A model generated the notes under the pieces. The model ran no database searches. It was not told where the DNA came from and was given only the letters and a program-made list of their open reading frames with translations. A program made the translations under genes and the position numbers. A stretch of DNA of 64,000 nt, from positions 4,464,001 to 4,528,000 of the forward strand of contig NZ_CP009526.1 in the NCBI RefSeq assembly GCF_000969985.1, read 5' to 3'. Positions 53,351-60,344 of this stretch are shown here, one piece after another (position 1 is the stretch's first letter; every line of letters starts with the position of its first letter). This DNA comes from Methanosarcina barkeri str. Wiesmoor (GTDB lineage: Archaea > Halobacteriota > Methanosarcinia > Methanosarcinales > Methanosarcinaceae).

Positions 53351-54895
53351 ATGCATTCGCCAGAGAAATATCTAGAAGTACCACTTGATTTCAGTCCCGA
53401 AAAAATGAATAATTCTTTTGCGGAGTTCAAGCAGGATTATCCGGAGTTTGAAACAACGCACATTCTCGATGAGCTAAGGGACCTTGAGTATGCACGCTTG
53501 GACTGGCATGATCAAATATATCTGGATTATACAGGTGGAGGGCTATACGCTAATAGTCAGCTTCTCAAACATATGGAACTGCTTCGATGCAATGTTTTTG
53601 GGAATCCTCATTCTGAAAATCCGACTTCAATAGCTATGACAAAGCTTGTGGAACGGGCCAGAATTAAAATATTAAGCTTTTTTAATGCGTCTCCTGATGA
53701 ATATGTAGCTATTTTTACTCCCAATGCTACAGGTGCTCTCAGATTAGTAGGAGAAGCCTATCCGTTCGAAAAAGGAGATCGGTATTTGTTGACCGCAGAT
53801 AATCATAACTCCGTCAACGGCATTAGAGTTTTTGCAGAAAGTAAAGGAGCTTCCGTAAGCTACATTCCTATGATTTCCTCTGAGCTGAGAGTGGACGAAG
53901 AAAAGCTGGAGTTTTATCTTGACCAGGCCAGACCTGAGAGAAACAACCTGTTTGCTTATCCAGCTCAATCCAACTTTTCGGGAGTGCAGCATCCCCTGGA
54001 CTGGATTGAGAAAGCCCGGAAAAAAAACTGGGATGTCTTGCTGGATTCTGCTGCCTTCGTACCTACTAACCGCCTTGACTTGAGTCTATGGCACCCTGAT
54101 TTTGTCTCAATTTCATTTTACAAAATTTTTGGTTACCCGACTGGTCTCGGTTGTCTTATTGTCCGAAAAGATGCTTTGAATAAACTAAAAAGACCCTGGT
54201 TTTCCGGGGGTACTATCAGCATAGTTTCTGTCCAGAAAGAAAACTGGTATTGCCTTCATCAGAGCGCTGAAGCCTTTGAGGCTTTTGAAGACGGCACTGT
54301 CAATTATCTCAGCATACCTGCCCTGGAAATAGGATTGAAGCATATAGAAGGGATTGGTGTGGATGTCATTCACAAAAGAGTGATGTGCCTTACTGGCTGG
54401 CTGCTGGATAAGATGCAGTCTCTGGAGTATCCCAATGGTCAGGCTATAGTAAAGATTCATGGTCCGTCCGGACTTGAGAGGCGGGGAGGGATAATTGCTT
54501 TTAACCTCTACCATGCAGACGGAACGCCTTTTGATTGCCAGACAGTTCAGGAGGCTGCAAATAAGGCAGGTATTTCTTTAAGAACCGGCTGTTTCTGTAA
54601 TCCTGGAGACGGTGAAGTAAGCCATAATATCACCAGAAAAGAAATGGCTTCATGCTTTGAGAATTTGAAACCTTCCAGCAGATATCCCTATGGCTCAGAT
54701 TGCAAGAACCAGGAATCCTGCCTTGCTGTAAAAACTAAAATGTCAAGCATACGTGTATCGCTTGGTCTTGTGACAAACTTCTCAGACGTCTATCGATTTA
54801 TGAACTTCCTTCAAGGACTGATGTATGAACCGGAGATCAGAGTTCTGAAAGCAGAAAAGGTAAAGCGAAGAGTATTCCTGAACAGAGGACCATAA
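53351..54895 (+). CDS. Molybdenum-cofactor-sulfurase-like class V aminotransferase
   Basis: PLP enzyme of 514 aa related to NifS-type cysteine desulfurases and specifically to the N-terminal domain of MoCo sulfurases (ABA3/MOCOS). Hallmarks: IYLDYTGGGLYANSQLLKHM, FGNPHSENPTS, K258 in SFYKIFGYPTGLGCLIVRKD as the PLP lysine, and C414/C416 in LRTGCFCNPGDGE, the GCFCNPG sulfur-carrying loop. No C-terminal MOSC domain is present. AGGGGAG precedes the start. In eukaryotes this activity makes the sulfido-form of the molybdenum cofactor; in methanogens the target is unknown, and general sulfur transfer is equally possible. Confidence 0.85.
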   Translation: MHSPEKYLEVPLDFSPEKMNNSFAEFKQDYPEFETTHILDELRDLEYARLDWHDQIYLDYTGGGLYANSQLLKHMELLRCNVFGNPHSENPTSIAMTKLVERARIKILSFFNASPDEYVAIFTPNATGALRLVGEAYPFEKGDRYLLTADNHNSVNGIRVFAESKGASVSYIPMISSELRVDEEKLEFYLDQARPERNNLFAYPAQSNFSGVQHPLDWIEKARKKNWDVLLDSAAFVPTNRLDLSLWHPDFVSISFYKIFGYPTGLGCLIVRKDALNKLKRPWFSGGTISIVSVQKENWYCLHQSAEAFEAFEDGTVNYLSIPALEIGLKHIEGIGVDVIHKRVMCLTGWLLDKMQSLEYPNGQAIVKIHGPSGLERRGGIIAFNLYHADGTPFDCQTVQEAANKAGISLRTGCFCNPGDGEVSHNITRKEMASCFENLKPSSRYPYGSDCKNQESCLAVKTKMSSIRVSLGLVTNFSDVYRFMNFLQGLMYEPEIRVLKAEKVKRRVFLNRGP

Positions 54896-55134: not shown

Positions 55135-57231
55135 ATGACTGCATCGAATAGTTGGAGAAAAACTGTAGTTTATACTGCATTAATACTCTGCCTGATCAGT
55201 TTTCTGTTGATAGTACATGCTGGATATGAGTATTATAGCAACAATACAGACGATAAAATTCTGGAAAAGGCAAAGGGAGATGCGTACAACAAAGCCAGCG
55301 TTGTTTTGGAAAATATATCGGGCGAACTTAATTCTACGAGCCTCCTGACTGACGGAATTGCAAAGGAACTGAGTTCTGGAAAACTGAAAAACGATTCCAT
55401 TATCAGGCAGCATATCCTGGATGAAATGGAGGGTAATCCAAATATTTTCAGCATTGTCATTGCTTATTCCCCTGCTTATTATGGGAAGCTTCATTCGCTT
55501 CATTTAAAAAAGAATGGTTCAAATATCCTGGAATTTCCAATCCTGTACGACTATACGAACAATAATGAAGAAACAACGGCCTGGTATACTAATGCCATGA
55601 AAAAGAAGTGTGGAGTCTGGAACCGGCCTTATTTCGGAGTGGCAGATGGTACCTATCTGATAGATTATTCAACTCCATTTTATCTTGCAGAATTCAAAAA
55701 CGGGAGCGAAGTTGCAGGAGTTGTGTGTGCAAGCCATTCTATTGAAGGAATAAGGACGCAGATAGGAAGCCTTGATCTTGGAAATACGGGTTACGGTTTT
55801 ATTTTCTCTGAGGAAGGATTGATCATTTCCTATCCTGTTCAGGATTATCTACTCAGAAATATTCACAAACTGGCAAAAGAAGATACCGAACTTAACCTTA
55901 TAGGCGAGAACATAAGCAAAAACATGACAGATCGAGTTGTAGAAAATGATCGGACAGGGCAATCTTCCTGGGTATTTTACAAAAATATCCGTTCTACAGA
56001 CTGGATACTGGGGACTGCCCTTCCTCAAGAAGAAATTTTGCTGAATAAAGATATAGAGCAGGATCGCTCTATTATCCAGGTCATGCTTTTAACTTTTGCC
56101 TTTTTATTCTTCCTGTCCCTATTTTTTGTCTCCATTTACAGGTATGACGATAGAAGTCTCTGGCTGTTAGCTCTTGTTTTTTCATCCCTCTGCATCCTGG
56201 GAATGGGCATCATTTGGCACTTTACTTTAAATGAATCGTCGATTGAAGTCGAGAATGGTAATATTGTTGTTTTCGACATAGCAGATGTTGAAACAGTACT
56301 GCTGAATTCCGATACGAACCCGAAAGCCTTCAGGATTCCCACGGGGGTCTTTATCCAGTCCATAGAGTTTTCGACTTCTAATGACATCACCATGACTGGG
56401 TATGTCTGGCAAAATATTTCAGGGCTGAGTGTTGAGAAGGCTTCGCCGAGATTTAGTTTCCCGGAATCAAAAGAAAGCACAGTTGAAAGAGACTATATGG
56501 ATGAGGACAAGAATATCGTAGGTTGGCGTTTCACGACTATTCTGCGCCAGCAATTCGATTATTCCAGATACCCATTTGACGAGGAAAATATATGGATTAA
56601 ATTCTGGAACAACACTTCTGAAGAAAGTGTTCTGGTTCCAGATTTTGATTCCTATGACAGCCTGTCTCCGGAAAAACTTATCGGCCTAGAAAACTCTCTC
56701 GTGCTTGAAGGCTGGAAGCCACAAAAAACTTTTTTCAGTTACAGGATGAATTCCTATAACACCAATTTTGGGGTAAAAGATTTTAAACATAGGAACTTAT
56801 CCGAGCTTTACTTCAACGTTGCTATCAAAAGAGACCTAAAGTCCCCATTTGTTTCCGACTTGCTACCCATAATAGTAGTAGCCATCCTTCTATTTGTGGT
56901 GCTTTTGATAACGACCAGGGAAGAAGAGAAAAATCAGTTCGGGTTTAAATCTTCGGGAGTCTTGACCTATTGTGCCTCTCTCTTTTTTGTTCTTATTGTT
57001 TCCCATGCCTCCCTCAGGGCTAAAATCCCTACGAATTGTATGATTTACCTTGAATATTTCTACCTTATACTGTATATGGCAATTCTAGGTGTATCTCTGA
57101 ATTCAATAGTATTTGCGTCCCATATGAATATCCCTTTTATTGATACAAAGGACAATCTGTATGTGAAAGTGCTTTACTGGCCTATAATTACGGGATTTCT
57201 GTTGATTATTACGCTCCTGAATTTCTATTGA
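55135..57231 (+). CDS. Cache sensor fused to pentameric ligand-gated ion channel-like domain
   Basis: Membrane protein of 698 aa. Residues 12-32 are a membrane helix; about 35-300 a Cache-type extracellular sensor (TTAWYTNAMKKKCGVWNRPY, DYSTPFYLAEFKNGSEVAGV, GNTGYGFIFSEEGLIISYP). Two helices follow (about 310-365). Residues 370-575 resemble the extracellular beta domain of Cys-loop-type channels, with DYSRYPFDEENIWIKFW matching the region before the Pro-loop, and PFVSDLLPIIVVAILLFVV as M1. Three more helices fit M2 (VLTYCASLFFVLIVSHASL), M3 (NCMIYLEYFYLILYMAILGV) and the C-terminal M4. No kinase, HAMP or signalling domain. The channel assignment is by pattern, not proven. Confidence 0.68.
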   Translation: MTASNSWRKTVVYTALILCLISFLLIVHAGYEYYSNNTDDKILEKAKGDAYNKASVVLENISGELNSTSLLTDGIAKELSSGKLKNDSIIRQHILDEMEGNPNIFSIVIAYSPAYYGKLHSLHLKKNGSNILEFPILYDYTNNNEETTAWYTNAMKKKCGVWNRPYFGVADGTYLIDYSTPFYLAEFKNGSEVAGVVCASHSIEGIRTQIGSLDLGNTGYGFIFSEEGLIISYPVQDYLLRNIHKLAKEDTELNLIGENISKNMTDRVVENDRTGQSSWVFYKNIRSTDWILGTALPQEEILLNKDIEQDRSIIQVMLLTFAFLFFLSLFFVSIYRYDDRSLWLLALVFSSLCILGMGIIWHFTLNESSIEVENGNIVVFDIADVETVLLNSDTNPKAFRIPTGVFIQSIEFSTSNDITMTGYVWQNISGLSVEKASPRFSFPESKESTVERDYMDEDKNIVGWRFTTILRQQFDYSRYPFDEENIWIKFWNNTSEESVLVPDFDSYDSLSPEKLIGLENSLVLEGWKPQKTFFSYRMNSYNTNFGVKDFKHRNLSELYFNVAIKRDLKSPFVSDLLPIIVVAILLFVVLLITTREEEKNQFGFKSSGVLTYCASLFFVLIVSHASLRAKIPTNCMIYLEYFYLILYMAILGVSLNSIVFASHMNIPFIDTKDNLYVKVLYWPIITGFLLIITLLNFY

Positions 57232-57658: not shown

Positions 57659-57911
57659 TAAACGTAATATGAATCATGGCCAGGTAATCGGAAGAATTAA
57701 TTAAGTCTGGCAAGCCGGTATATTTACCTTATTATTCCAGATTTAAAATATATTTTCTACTTGTTTTCCCGATACCTGTTTAACTATGAGAGCATTGGAA
57801 AAGTAAACTTTCCTTTCTTTTTTCTATTTATTCTAATCTTTTAATACAAATAGGGAACAATGATAATATTAAGGCTTATTTGTTAAAGGTTAGATAAATT
57901 TGGGGGGAATA

Positions 57912-60344
57912 ATGAGGACTAAAGAAGAGCTATGTTCAATAAGTTTACCTTCAACGTTTTTGATTTTCATTTTCTTAGTTTCCATATCAACTACTGCATC
58001 AGCAAGGGAAATTACAGTAGATGATAATTCAGGAGCTGATTTCATATCAATTCAGGAAGCTGTGAATAACTCTATAGCAGGGGACATAATAATCGTGAAG
58101 CCTGGAACTTATACTGAAAACGTTCTTGTTAATGTAAAAGGTCTAACTATTAGGTCAGAATCAAACAATGGCGATGCGCAGGTAATACCGCTGAATGAAA
58201 GTGTAAGTACTTTTCTGATAACAGCTAATAGCACAACGATCAGGGGTTTAAATATAACAGGAGCCAGTAAAAATCATGGTAAAAATGCGATCTTTGTTTA
58301 TAGCGATATGAATAATGTGACAGGTAATACCATTGAAAACGGTTCTATTATTTTGGGATCCCACGTACCAGACAATTTAACAATCATCTTTCATGGTGAT
58401 ATGAATAATGTGACAGGTAATACCATTGAAAACGGTTCTATTATTTTGGGATCCGAGCTATCAGGCAATTTAATAGCCGAAAATAAAATTTCTAACGGCG
58501 AAGGTGTACATATTTCCTGCTGTGGAAGAAATAATACAGTATTAGGTAATACGATCTCAAATTGTTCCACTGGCATCTATGCATATGATCAGAAAGTAGA
58601 TATTCGTAATAACAGGATTAATAACTGCGATTATGGGATTAGGCTTGCGATGTCAAGTTCAGGAATTGACAATAATACAATATTAAACTGTGATGTAGGG
58701 ATTCATTTAGATGATGCCTGTATTGGTGTTGAAATTATCAATAACACGATAATTTCCAGTGCAGAATGCGGGATTACTGATCTGTACGATGAAGGTGGTA
58801 AACGGATCTACAACAATTACTTTAATAACACTGTAAACGTAAGGCTTGGAGCTGGCAGAGGGAATACCTGGAACAGTTCGCTTACTCAAGGTACTAACAT
58901 TGTCGGAGGCCCTTATATTGGAGGAAACTTCTGGGCAAAACCCGATGGAACCGGATTTTCTCAGATCTGTGCGGATTTGGATGGAAATGGGATTGGAGAC
59001 CTGTCTTATAAAGTCTATGAGGATCCTTATAACGTCCATGAGGACAAGTTCGACTATTTACCTCTTGTATCTATGTCCAGTCTGCAAAATTCGGTTACTC
59101 CAACTGCTAACTTTACAGCCAGTCTCACTAATGGGTCTGCACCCCTTGTTGTCAAGTTTACAGACCTTTCGAAAAACGCAGTTGTGTGGGACTGGGACTT
59201 TGATGGTGATGGGGTATCAGATTCCACAAAACAAAATCCTGTATATGCGTACAAGACTTCAGGAAACTATACCGTTAATTTGACAGTTAGCAATGGAATC
59301 AATACTAGTTTCAAACTTGTTAACATAACTGTTGGAAAGAGAGTTTCATCCACGTGGCCATTTGTATACATCACAAATAACGGTGCATTCTCTGTAATTG
59401 ACACAGCCACAGGAATAGTTATAACATCTGTGAAAGTAGGACGTGGCCCTGAAGGAATTGCAGTCATACCTAATGGAAAAACGGCATATGTGGCGAACTC
59501 TCGGGACAACAATGTTTCTGTGATTGATACTACAACAAATACCGTTATAGCTACAGTAAATGTAGGACGTGACCCTTCTGAAGTTGCAGTTACACCGGAT
59601 GGAACAAAGGTATATGTGACGAACTATAACAGCAATAATGTTTCTGTAATTGACACAGCCACTAATACTGTTATAGCTACTATGCCTGTAGAAAGTGGCC
59701 CTTCTGGAGTCGCAATAAGTCCAGATGGAACAAAGGTATATGTGACTAACTATAACAGCAACACTACCTCTGTAATTGACACAGCAACAAACAAGGTTAA
59801 AGCTACAATAAATGTAGGCGAACATCCTTGGGGAGTTGCAGTAAGTCCAGATGGAACAAAGGTGTATGTGACAACCTACTACGATGTCTCTGTAATTGAT
59901 ACAGCTACAAATACCGTTACAGCTAAGGTGGATGTAAGAAGAAGACCTCATGAAATTGTAGTCAATACAGCAGGAACAAAAGTATATGTGGCTGGCGGAG
60001 ATGGCTTTGTCTCTGTAATTGATACAGTTACGAGAAAAGTTATAACCAGAGTGAATGTAGGAAAGGACACTGAAGGAGTTGCGGTCACACCTAATGGAAA
60101 AAAGGTATATGTGGTAACCAGGGGCAGTTATGAGATCAATTATAGCAACACTATCTCTGTAATTGATACTTCAAACGATACTGTCTCAGCAACAGTGGAT
60201 ATCGAGGTTTCTCCCGGGGGACTTGCAATCATCCCAGATCCAGAATCAGTATTTCCAGTAGCTAATTTCAGCAGCAATGTCAGTGAAGGTTTTACACATC
60301 TCTCAGTTCAGTTTATTGACAACTCAGAAAACGCAACCGAATGA
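57912..60344 (+). CDS. Secreted beta-helix, PKD and beta-propeller surface protein
   Basis: Exported protein of about 810 aa from ATG (57912) with GGGGGG upstream. Signal peptide FLIFIFLVSISTTASA; residues 20-380 a right-handed beta-helix of NosD/PbH1 type (FISIQEAVNNSIAGDIIIVK, repeated NNVTGNTIENGS); PKD domain (VVWDWDFDGDGVSDSTKQNP); residues 480-770 a YVTN/NHL beta-propeller of about seven units (DGTKVYVTNYNSNNVSVIDT). A second PKD starts (VANFSSNVSEGF) and is cut by TGA at 60342. The frame remains open for 50 more PKD-like codons to 60497 (NWDFGDNTCSTAKNTLHTYN). A 57-bp exact direct duplication (58306 and 58399) lies in the beta-helix part. Confidence 0.87.
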   Translation: MRTKEELCSISLPSTFLIFIFLVSISTTASAREITVDDNSGADFISIQEAVNNSIAGDIIIVKPGTYTENVLVNVKGLTIRSESNNGDAQVIPLNESVSTFLITANSTTIRGLNITGASKNHGKNAIFVYSDMNNVTGNTIENGSIILGSHVPDNLTIIFHGDMNNVTGNTIENGSIILGSELSGNLIAENKISNGEGVHISCCGRNNTVLGNTISNCSTGIYAYDQKVDIRNNRINNCDYGIRLAMSSSGIDNNTILNCDVGIHLDDACIGVEIINNTIISSAECGITDLYDEGGKRIYNNYFNNTVNVRLGAGRGNTWNSSLTQGTNIVGGPYIGGNFWAKPDGTGFSQICADLDGNGIGDLSYKVYEDPYNVHEDKFDYLPLVSMSSLQNSVTPTANFTASLTNGSAPLVVKFTDLSKNAVVWDWDFDGDGVSDSTKQNPVYAYKTSGNYTVNLTVSNGINTSFKLVNITVGKRVSSTWPFVYITNNGAFSVIDTATGIVITSVKVGRGPEGIAVIPNGKTAYVANSRDNNVSVIDTTTNTVIATVNVGRDPSEVAVTPDGTKVYVTNYNSNNVSVIDTATNTVIATMPVESGPSGVAISPDGTKVYVTNYNSNTTSVIDTATNKVKATINVGEHPWGVAVSPDGTKVYVTTYYDVSVIDTATNTVTAKVDVRRRPHEIVVNTAGTKVYVAGGDGFVSVIDTVTRKVITRVNVGKDTEGVAVTPNGKKVYVVTRGSYEINYSNTISVIDTSNDTVSATVDIEVSPGGLAIIPDPESVFPVANFSSNVSEGFTHLSVQFIDNSENATE

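Follow-up and report, generated by a model that had tools for sequence, protein, structure and literature searches.

A probable Cys-less pentameric ligand-gated channel subunit with a double-Cache sensor in Methanosarcina barkeri, and the genomic settings of its relatives

The window, that is, the whole stretch of DNA analysed here, comprises 64,000 nucleotides of the genome of Methanosarcina barkeri str. Wiesmoor. At positions 55135-57231 of its plus strand lies a single open frame that starts with ATG, lacks internal stops and encodes a protein of 698 amino acids; the opposite strand of the same interval contains many stops. Comparison with three orthologues at 92, 70 and 62% identity yields dN/dS values of 0.28-0.34 for the whole gene and of 0.21-0.43 within either half, and these low values in both the Cache half and the channel half indicate that both are maintained by selection. 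The gene is intact and under purifying selection. The orthologue that is 70% identical resides in a Methanosarcina genome designated G004, and the homologue at 62% identity was found in G015. Scans for promoters and terminators returned sites no more numerous than in shuffled sequences. A class-V aminotransferase gene (PF00266, 2.1e-39; 53351-54895, plus strand) ends 239 bp upstream of the channel gene on the same strand, and downstream, at 57900-60344 (plus strand), there is a surface-type protein that combines NosD/beta-helix, PKD and YNCE-like beta-propeller regions. Among the archaeal loci compared, the aminotransferase is the sole adjacent gene held in common, and with one genome only (G361); the neighbourhood comparison found no conserved partner gene around the archaeal copies. 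The features of the gene are the following:

55135-57231, plus strand: whole gene, Cache-pLGIC fusion of 698 aa (open reading frame; dN/dS).
55165-55221, plus strand: TM1, residues 11-29, preceding the Cache sensor (hydropathy 2.53; model helix 2-35).
55306-56016, plus strand: double-Cache sensor, residues 58-294, predicted to be extracellular (PF02743; PDB matches).
56080-56214, plus strand: hairpin of TM2 (core 316-334) and TM0 (core 342-360), linking Cache and channel (hydropathy; model helices 298-335 and 339-365).
56320-56841, plus strand: predicted beta domain of the pLGIC ligand-binding type, residues 396-569, with YPFD at 479-482 and W527 (model strands; superposition on GLIC).
56830-56832, plus strand: R566, the pre-M1 arginine that pairs with D482 in the salt bridge of the superfamily (HMMER against GLIC; Arg in 80/82 relatives).
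56860-56919, plus strand: M1, about 576-595, with the kink proline P578 (model; hydropathy).
56950-57015, plus strand: pore helix M2, about 606-627, with R628 (19') and the M2-M3 proline P632 behind it (both models; R628 in 81/82).
57031-57117, plus strand: M3, about 633-661, starting YLEYFY; E640 in 81/82 (models; hydropathy).
57157-57225, plus strand: M4, about 675-697, with W682-P683, the proline in 82/82 (models; hydropathy).

The initial annotation described the protein as a Cache sensor fused to a Cys-loop-type channel, quoting the motifs RYPFDEEN and PFVSDLLP, which are indeed present at residues 478-485 and 571-578, respectively. Curated models are of little help here: the channel half alone gives no match to the channel families of Pfam and NCBIfam (PF02931 and PF02932 do not reach it), and the Pfam channel families recover nothing in the genome of the window and, across the phylum, one match over threshold plus scattered weak ones. 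The profile search proposed at the outset thus fails with curated Pfam models and succeeds with profiles built from the protein's own relatives. A profile of 12 archaeal relatives run against all PDB sequences retrieved 56 matches, every one a variant or chimera of GLIC (best E 0.0084). Enlarging the profile to 39 relatives brings a GLIC-glycine-receptor chimera to the top (4.6e-5) and GABA-A beta1 to 0.0018, and the 60 best PDB matches listed are all pLGICs; the profile of 82 relatives gives pLGICs in 40 of the 40 matches listed. A model of the full protein from 11 close relatives was poor in the channel half, which leaves its geometry between Cache and channel tentative; AlphaFold2 run on just the channel half, with an alignment of 82 relatives, reached a pLDDT of 88.6 and a pTM of 0.82. 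Foldseek relates this second model to 840 PDB chains at E < 0.001, the best 50 of the 840 being all GABA-A receptors (7.3e-13 for the best subunits), and re-alignment by VIA-align ranks GLIC first, with a Z of 20.7 and an rmsd of 2.3 over 273 residues (model 61-362, corresponding to residues 396-697). The predicted structure has all four helices in place behind the beta domain, in the M1-M4 order that had been proposed. Residues 396-697 are accordingly modelled with the pLGIC fold and, with profile and prediction both relating them to pentameric channels and the helices corresponding to M1-M4, the channel interpretation is supported.

The signature residues of the superfamily are also in their places. 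Table 1 of Jaiteh et al. (PMC4795631) names seven positions that are conserved in the superfamily, and the seven are present here as Y479, P480, D482, W527, R566, P578 and P632, the first six placed by HMMER alignment to GLIC and P632 by our own count. The YPxD segment, W527, R566, P578 and P632 belong to the gating pathway. The [F/Y]PxD loop between beta6 and beta7 reads Y479-P480-F481-D482 and aligns to YPFD of GLIC, P480 being found in 82/82 relatives. Across the channel half P480, R628, E640, W682 and P683 show little or no variation; this protein has the M2-M3 proline, yet only 14/82 relatives do. No Cys-loop cysteines exist, residues 366-575, which include the beta domain, being devoid of any Cys, and the protein is therefore a Cys-less, or Pro-loop, member. 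As a consequence, the pentameric-channel part of the "Cys-loop-type" label holds and its cysteine part does not: signature residues, superposition of the beta-sandwich and M1-M4, and profile homology place the protein in the Pro-loop superfamily, outside the strict animal Cys-loop receptors with their two disulphide-bonded cysteines flanking the Pro-loop. In M2, counted from P632, there is Phe at 9', Val at 0' (V609), Gly at -1' (G608), Ser at -2' (S607) and Arg at 19'. Since the cationic residue frequent at 0' in the superfamily is absent and no charged ring stands at -1'/-2', ion selectivity is not readable with confidence from the pore helix.

The N-terminal half fits the proposed Cache sensor. 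The dCache_1 family (PF02743) matches residues 58-294 with an E-value of 6.5e-17 and 62.3 bits against a Pfam gathering cut-off of 45, and the same match appears in 36 of the 38 full-length relatives scanned. PDB sequences matching this half are Cache domains of histidine kinases and MCP chemoreceptors (best 7.8e-8). In the Cache sensors for amino acids and amines, a ligand-contacting Asp is found at D173 of PctA and D235 of PctD (PMC10104139). Alignments to solved relatives put Ser200 of the window protein at that position, which sets it apart from the dCache_1AA and dCache_1AM classes; the position is mixed across the wider family (Asn in 11, Ser in 10 and Asp in 7 of 38). The replacement of Asp by Ser200 makes the known amino-acid and methylamine classes unlikely as ligands, and judging from the sequence this Cache probably senses something other than the free amino acids and methylamines that those classes recognise.

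Hydropathy delimits seven membrane segments, at residues 11-29, 316-334, 342-360, 576-594, about 604-627, about 635-660 and 677-695, which agree with the helices of both predicted models. The Cache half had been said to carry membrane helices of its own, and three of the segments are these, adding to M1-M4 to make seven per subunit. The sensor is placed between TM1 and TM2, and TM2 is followed by a short loop, TM0 and the beta domain. Directly after TM0 stands W361, a position occupied by Trp in 77/82 relatives. TM0 alone constitutes the N-terminal helix of stand-alone relatives, Cache-less proteins of about 380 residues (among them L072, L077, L089, L094, L097, L103, L111 and L114), whose sequences suggest five-helix pLGIC subunits. 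On reading these sequences, no obvious signal-peptidase site is seen in their TM0, which ends with the near-invariant Trp. The Streptomyces copies, in turn, read as having several N-terminal helices and a length too small for a Cache domain.

The family to which the protein belongs is widespread and patchy. Scanning 84,980 genomes, one per species, gave at least 78 loci, the matches listed including Methanosarcinales, Cyanobacteriota, Pseudomonadota, Nitrospinota, Nitrospirota, Chloroflexota, Thermomicrobiota, Acidobacteriota, Myxococcota, Bacteroidota, Streptomyces and others; within Methanosarcinaceae, the channel is carried by 11 of the 91 genomes sampled. Other prokaryotic pLGICs are reported to be likewise patchy (Jaiteh et al., PMC4795631; Tasneem et al., PMC549065). 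On the tree of the channel, the archaeal copies cluster in a single group of 15 rows (SH-aLRT 99) among bacterial long-form copies, and the stand-alone copies fall mainly into one group. L049 (SXND01000095.1), a MAG contig labelled Proteobacteria, falls inside the archaeal group, through recent transfer or else through misbinning of the contig. Of the sampled relatives, 55/82, from many phyla, are of the long form that has an N-terminal part of sensor size. The family, as read from its sequences, is modular: with Cache, without Cache, and nearly always with TM0.

Several variants accompany these main forms. At L046:1247-5047 and in L025 (contig C41 of G265) there is a frame of 1276 residues with the channel at its end and two N-terminal stretches that match the Cache region, which suggests an enlarged or duplicated sensor part. 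Channel genes broken or truncated by stops or missing helices occur at L006/L130 (G036), L007/L131 (G033) and on contigs C191, C310 and C320 of G018, a pattern that reads as decay of the channel gene in some Methanosarcinales. In another family of the phylum, L029:1153-2148 and L031 (G388 and G294) encode a short protein (about 330 aa) that lacks Cache but has YPFD and several hydrophobic segments in its C-terminal part; its identity to part of the channel half is about 24%, and it is probably another archaeal pLGIC group. Genes of the Peripla_BP_6/5 type adjoin some of the bacterial Cache-channel genes, in part overlapping them (L058:1605-2762, L057:4906-6240, L151:4776-6014), and similar binding-protein genes are seen in L053, L055, L060, L061, L062, L063, L078, L082 and L083; three of these neighbours were confirmed by Pfam and the others by similarity. 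The periplasmic binding protein beside the bacterial copies is likely a ligand-delivery partner, in line with Tasneem et al. 2004.

We consider it very probable that the gene encodes a subunit of a homopentameric, Cys-less pLGIC equipped with an N-terminal double-Cache sensor. Five identical subunits would assemble into a pore lined by M2, and a small molecule would bind the extracellular Cache domain, the beta domain, or both. The signal would then travel via the hairpin of TM2 and TM0, pass the beta domain and reach M1-M2, opening an ion path, and the response may be the resulting shift in membrane potential or ion balance. The weakest step of this scheme is the gating of the pore by Cache, which we infer. 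As stand-alone forms exist, a channel should be able to work without Cache, which is then an extra input. This also lends weight to a serious rival, in which the agonist site would lie primarily in the beta domain and Cache would only modulate the channel or aid its assembly, a role like that of the additional N-terminal domain of DeCLIC. Stand-alone relatives are common and keep the entire beta domain and TM0 without any Cache, and the Cache domain itself departs from the amino-acid and amine motifs at the Asp position; against this, the sensor-sized N-terminal part is retained in most of the sampled relatives across many phyla, and the Cache half is under purifying selection. On balance we find a purely modulatory Cache plausible, though somewhat doubtful.

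A different kind of proposal arises from the neighbours of the relatives, several of which include proteins with the eCIS_core domain (PF13699) of extracellular contractile injection systems (eCIS), which resemble phage tails. Genomes were searched for phage sheath, eCIS_core and CIS tube families and for the channel. Seven genomes have sheath and channel no more than 25 kb apart on a single contig (G112, G423, G424, G466, G469, G474 and G475), and in all seven the channel is downstream of the sheath on the same strand. In six of them, G469 being the exception, the channel is located at or near the end of an essentially one-strand eCIS operon, 14-24 kb past the sheath gene, and these six runs have sheath, tube, hub and wedge families in common. 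The Thermoanaerobaculia MAG G469 was dropped from the operon count, since other-strand genes intervene. The linked stretches of the six genomes are the following:

L146: G112, Methanosarcinaceae.
L147/L148: G423, Methanosarcinaceae.
L149/L150: G424, Methanosarcinaceae.
L151/L152: G466, Cellvibrio sp. OA-2007.
L155/L156: G474, Nitrosomonas MAG.
L157:1213-19901 and L158:1-6100: G475, Yoonia sediminilitoris.

In Yoonia, 6 bp separate the preceding gene from the start of the channel; in Cellvibrio, the channel frame and the binding-protein frame before it overlap at the end of the latter; and in Nitrosomonas the channel is flanked by two eCIS_core-type genes. Pfam identifies in the Yoonia operon sheath 1C (6.5e-12), CIS_tube (7.5e-42), Phage_base_V (4.5e-17), gp25 (8e-25) and AAA (2.2e-28), and also names the sheaths of G112 and G474. 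Among the eCIS-linked orthologues, the one nearest to the window protein is that of G004, whose channel (L122:8322-10487) is adjoined and preceded, on its upstream side, by two eCIS_core-type genes (L122:1553-7797, minus strand). The products of the latter contain LQRTIGNRAV and HExxH motifs, one of the two being confirmed by Pfam, and a CIS tube gene is found 20 kb from the channel on the other strand. Under random placement, a crude estimate for seven linked genomes out of approximately 27 that hold both gives P ~2e-7, and counting only four lineages, which are not fully independent, gives 9e-4. Co-occurrence of channel and sheath is weak (4/11 carriers versus 14/80 others in the 91 Methanosarcinaceae genomes), so the eCIS argument rests on physical linkage. 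G265 and G430 hold both, though on different contigs.

It is possible, albeit rather unlikely in our estimation, that in some eCIS the Cache/TM0 channel family has a working role, as a stimulus-gated channel coupling an outside chemical signal to particle firing, release or lysis of the producer cell; the window gene would then be, jointly and at the same low probability, a copy persisting without the system. Put as a rival account of the window gene, namely a stimulus-gated eCIS accessory that controls firing, release or lysis and is kept by the lineage after loss of the system, we judge it unlikely. It draws on the six genomes in which the channel closes or nearly closes a same-strand operon, on the G004 orthologue beside its eCIS_core-type genes, and on the separate places that the eCIS-linked rows take on the channel tree. 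Unlike its relatives in those six genomes, the window gene is outside any eCIS operon, and the family search found no sheath, eCIS_core or CIS tube genes in its genome, nor in G015 and G361, two near-complete Methanosarcina carriers. Moreover, unlinked carriers are the majority, and cargo genes gather at eCIS loci, where the channel may be a passenger, its linkage being no proof of a role. In the literature searched (Cache with pLGIC; contractile injection with ligand-gated channels) no paper links eCIS and pLGIC, and a term search finds no mention of ion channels in the main text of PMC8213781 and PMC12998442; a pLGIC within eCIS operons thus seems to be unreported. If it holds, the operon link would supply the family with a genomic setting whose phenotype can be tested.

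The unusual M2 (Phe at 9', no cation at 0', no acidic or basic ring at -1'/-2') would also suit a non-conducting receptor of pLGIC fold that passes its signal to a partner by conformation. However, Phe is the second commonest 9' residue in the superfamily (PMC4795631), the gating-path residues of the pre-M1 segment, the Pro-loop and M1 are retained, the protein has no signalling domain on its cytoplasmic side, and the archaeal copies have no conserved partner gene beside them; a non-conducting receptor is improbable, slightly more so than the eCIS accessory. Chance resemblance without kinship to pentameric channels, for which the failure of the protein alone to match Pfam or NCBIfam channel families might speak, is rejected as next to impossible given the GLIC alignment at Z 20.7 and the agreement of sequence profile, fold and signature residues.

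The preferred reading, a Cache-equipped Cys-less channel, can be set beside several known systems. GLIC shares with the window protein the superposable beta domain and M1-M4 as well as YPFD, the Trp, the pre-M1 Arg and the M1 Pro, but the identity is about 15% and GLIC is proton-gated and has neither Cache nor TM0. The animal GABA-A and glycine receptors likewise have, by our own count, Arg at 19', whereas the window protein lacks their Cys-loop cysteines and long M3-M4 loop and differs in its M2 charge pattern. DeCLIC, the Desulfofustis pLGIC, resembles it in having an extra periplasmic module ahead of the beta domain, although that module, in the parts of its description drawn on here, is a calcium-dependent modulatory domain and not Cache. 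We know of no extra membrane helices before the beta domain of DeCLIC. On the sensor side, the window protein shares its fold with the dCache_1 chemoreceptors and with histidine kinases, the kinase sensor domains 3LI8 and 3LIB among them; their output is a kinase or methyl-accepting domain, in contrast to a channel, and the ligand-contacting Asp stands where the window protein has Ser200.

The closest precedents are the Cache-fused ART-LGICs of Methanosarcina barkeri, M. acetivorans, Cytophaga and Microbulbifer reported by Tasneem et al. in 2004 (PMC549065). According to the parts of that report drawn on here, archaeal pLGIC homologues occur in one genus, Methanosarcina, an N-terminal MCP-N and Cache fusion is described, with M. 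barkeri and M. acetivorans sequences aligned, and operons with periplasmic binding proteins led to the proposal of a role in chemotaxis. Genus and part order (N-terminal sensor with Cache, beta domain of the ligand-binding type, four-helix channel) match the window protein, although the strain is probably a different one, and on this account the Cache-channel architecture has been known for Methanosarcina since 2004. The same parts of the report do not contain the TM2-TM0 hairpin, the TM0 stand-alones or the contractile-injection link, which are described here; functional or structural work on Cache-fused pLGICs was not found in the literature searched. The natural variants with and without Cache offer a way to test the role of the extra sensor by comparison. 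That methanogens carry relatives of nerve receptors has been documented since 2004; what is added here is a confidently predicted fold, a seven-helix topology, a narrowed list of ligands and the modular make-up of the family.
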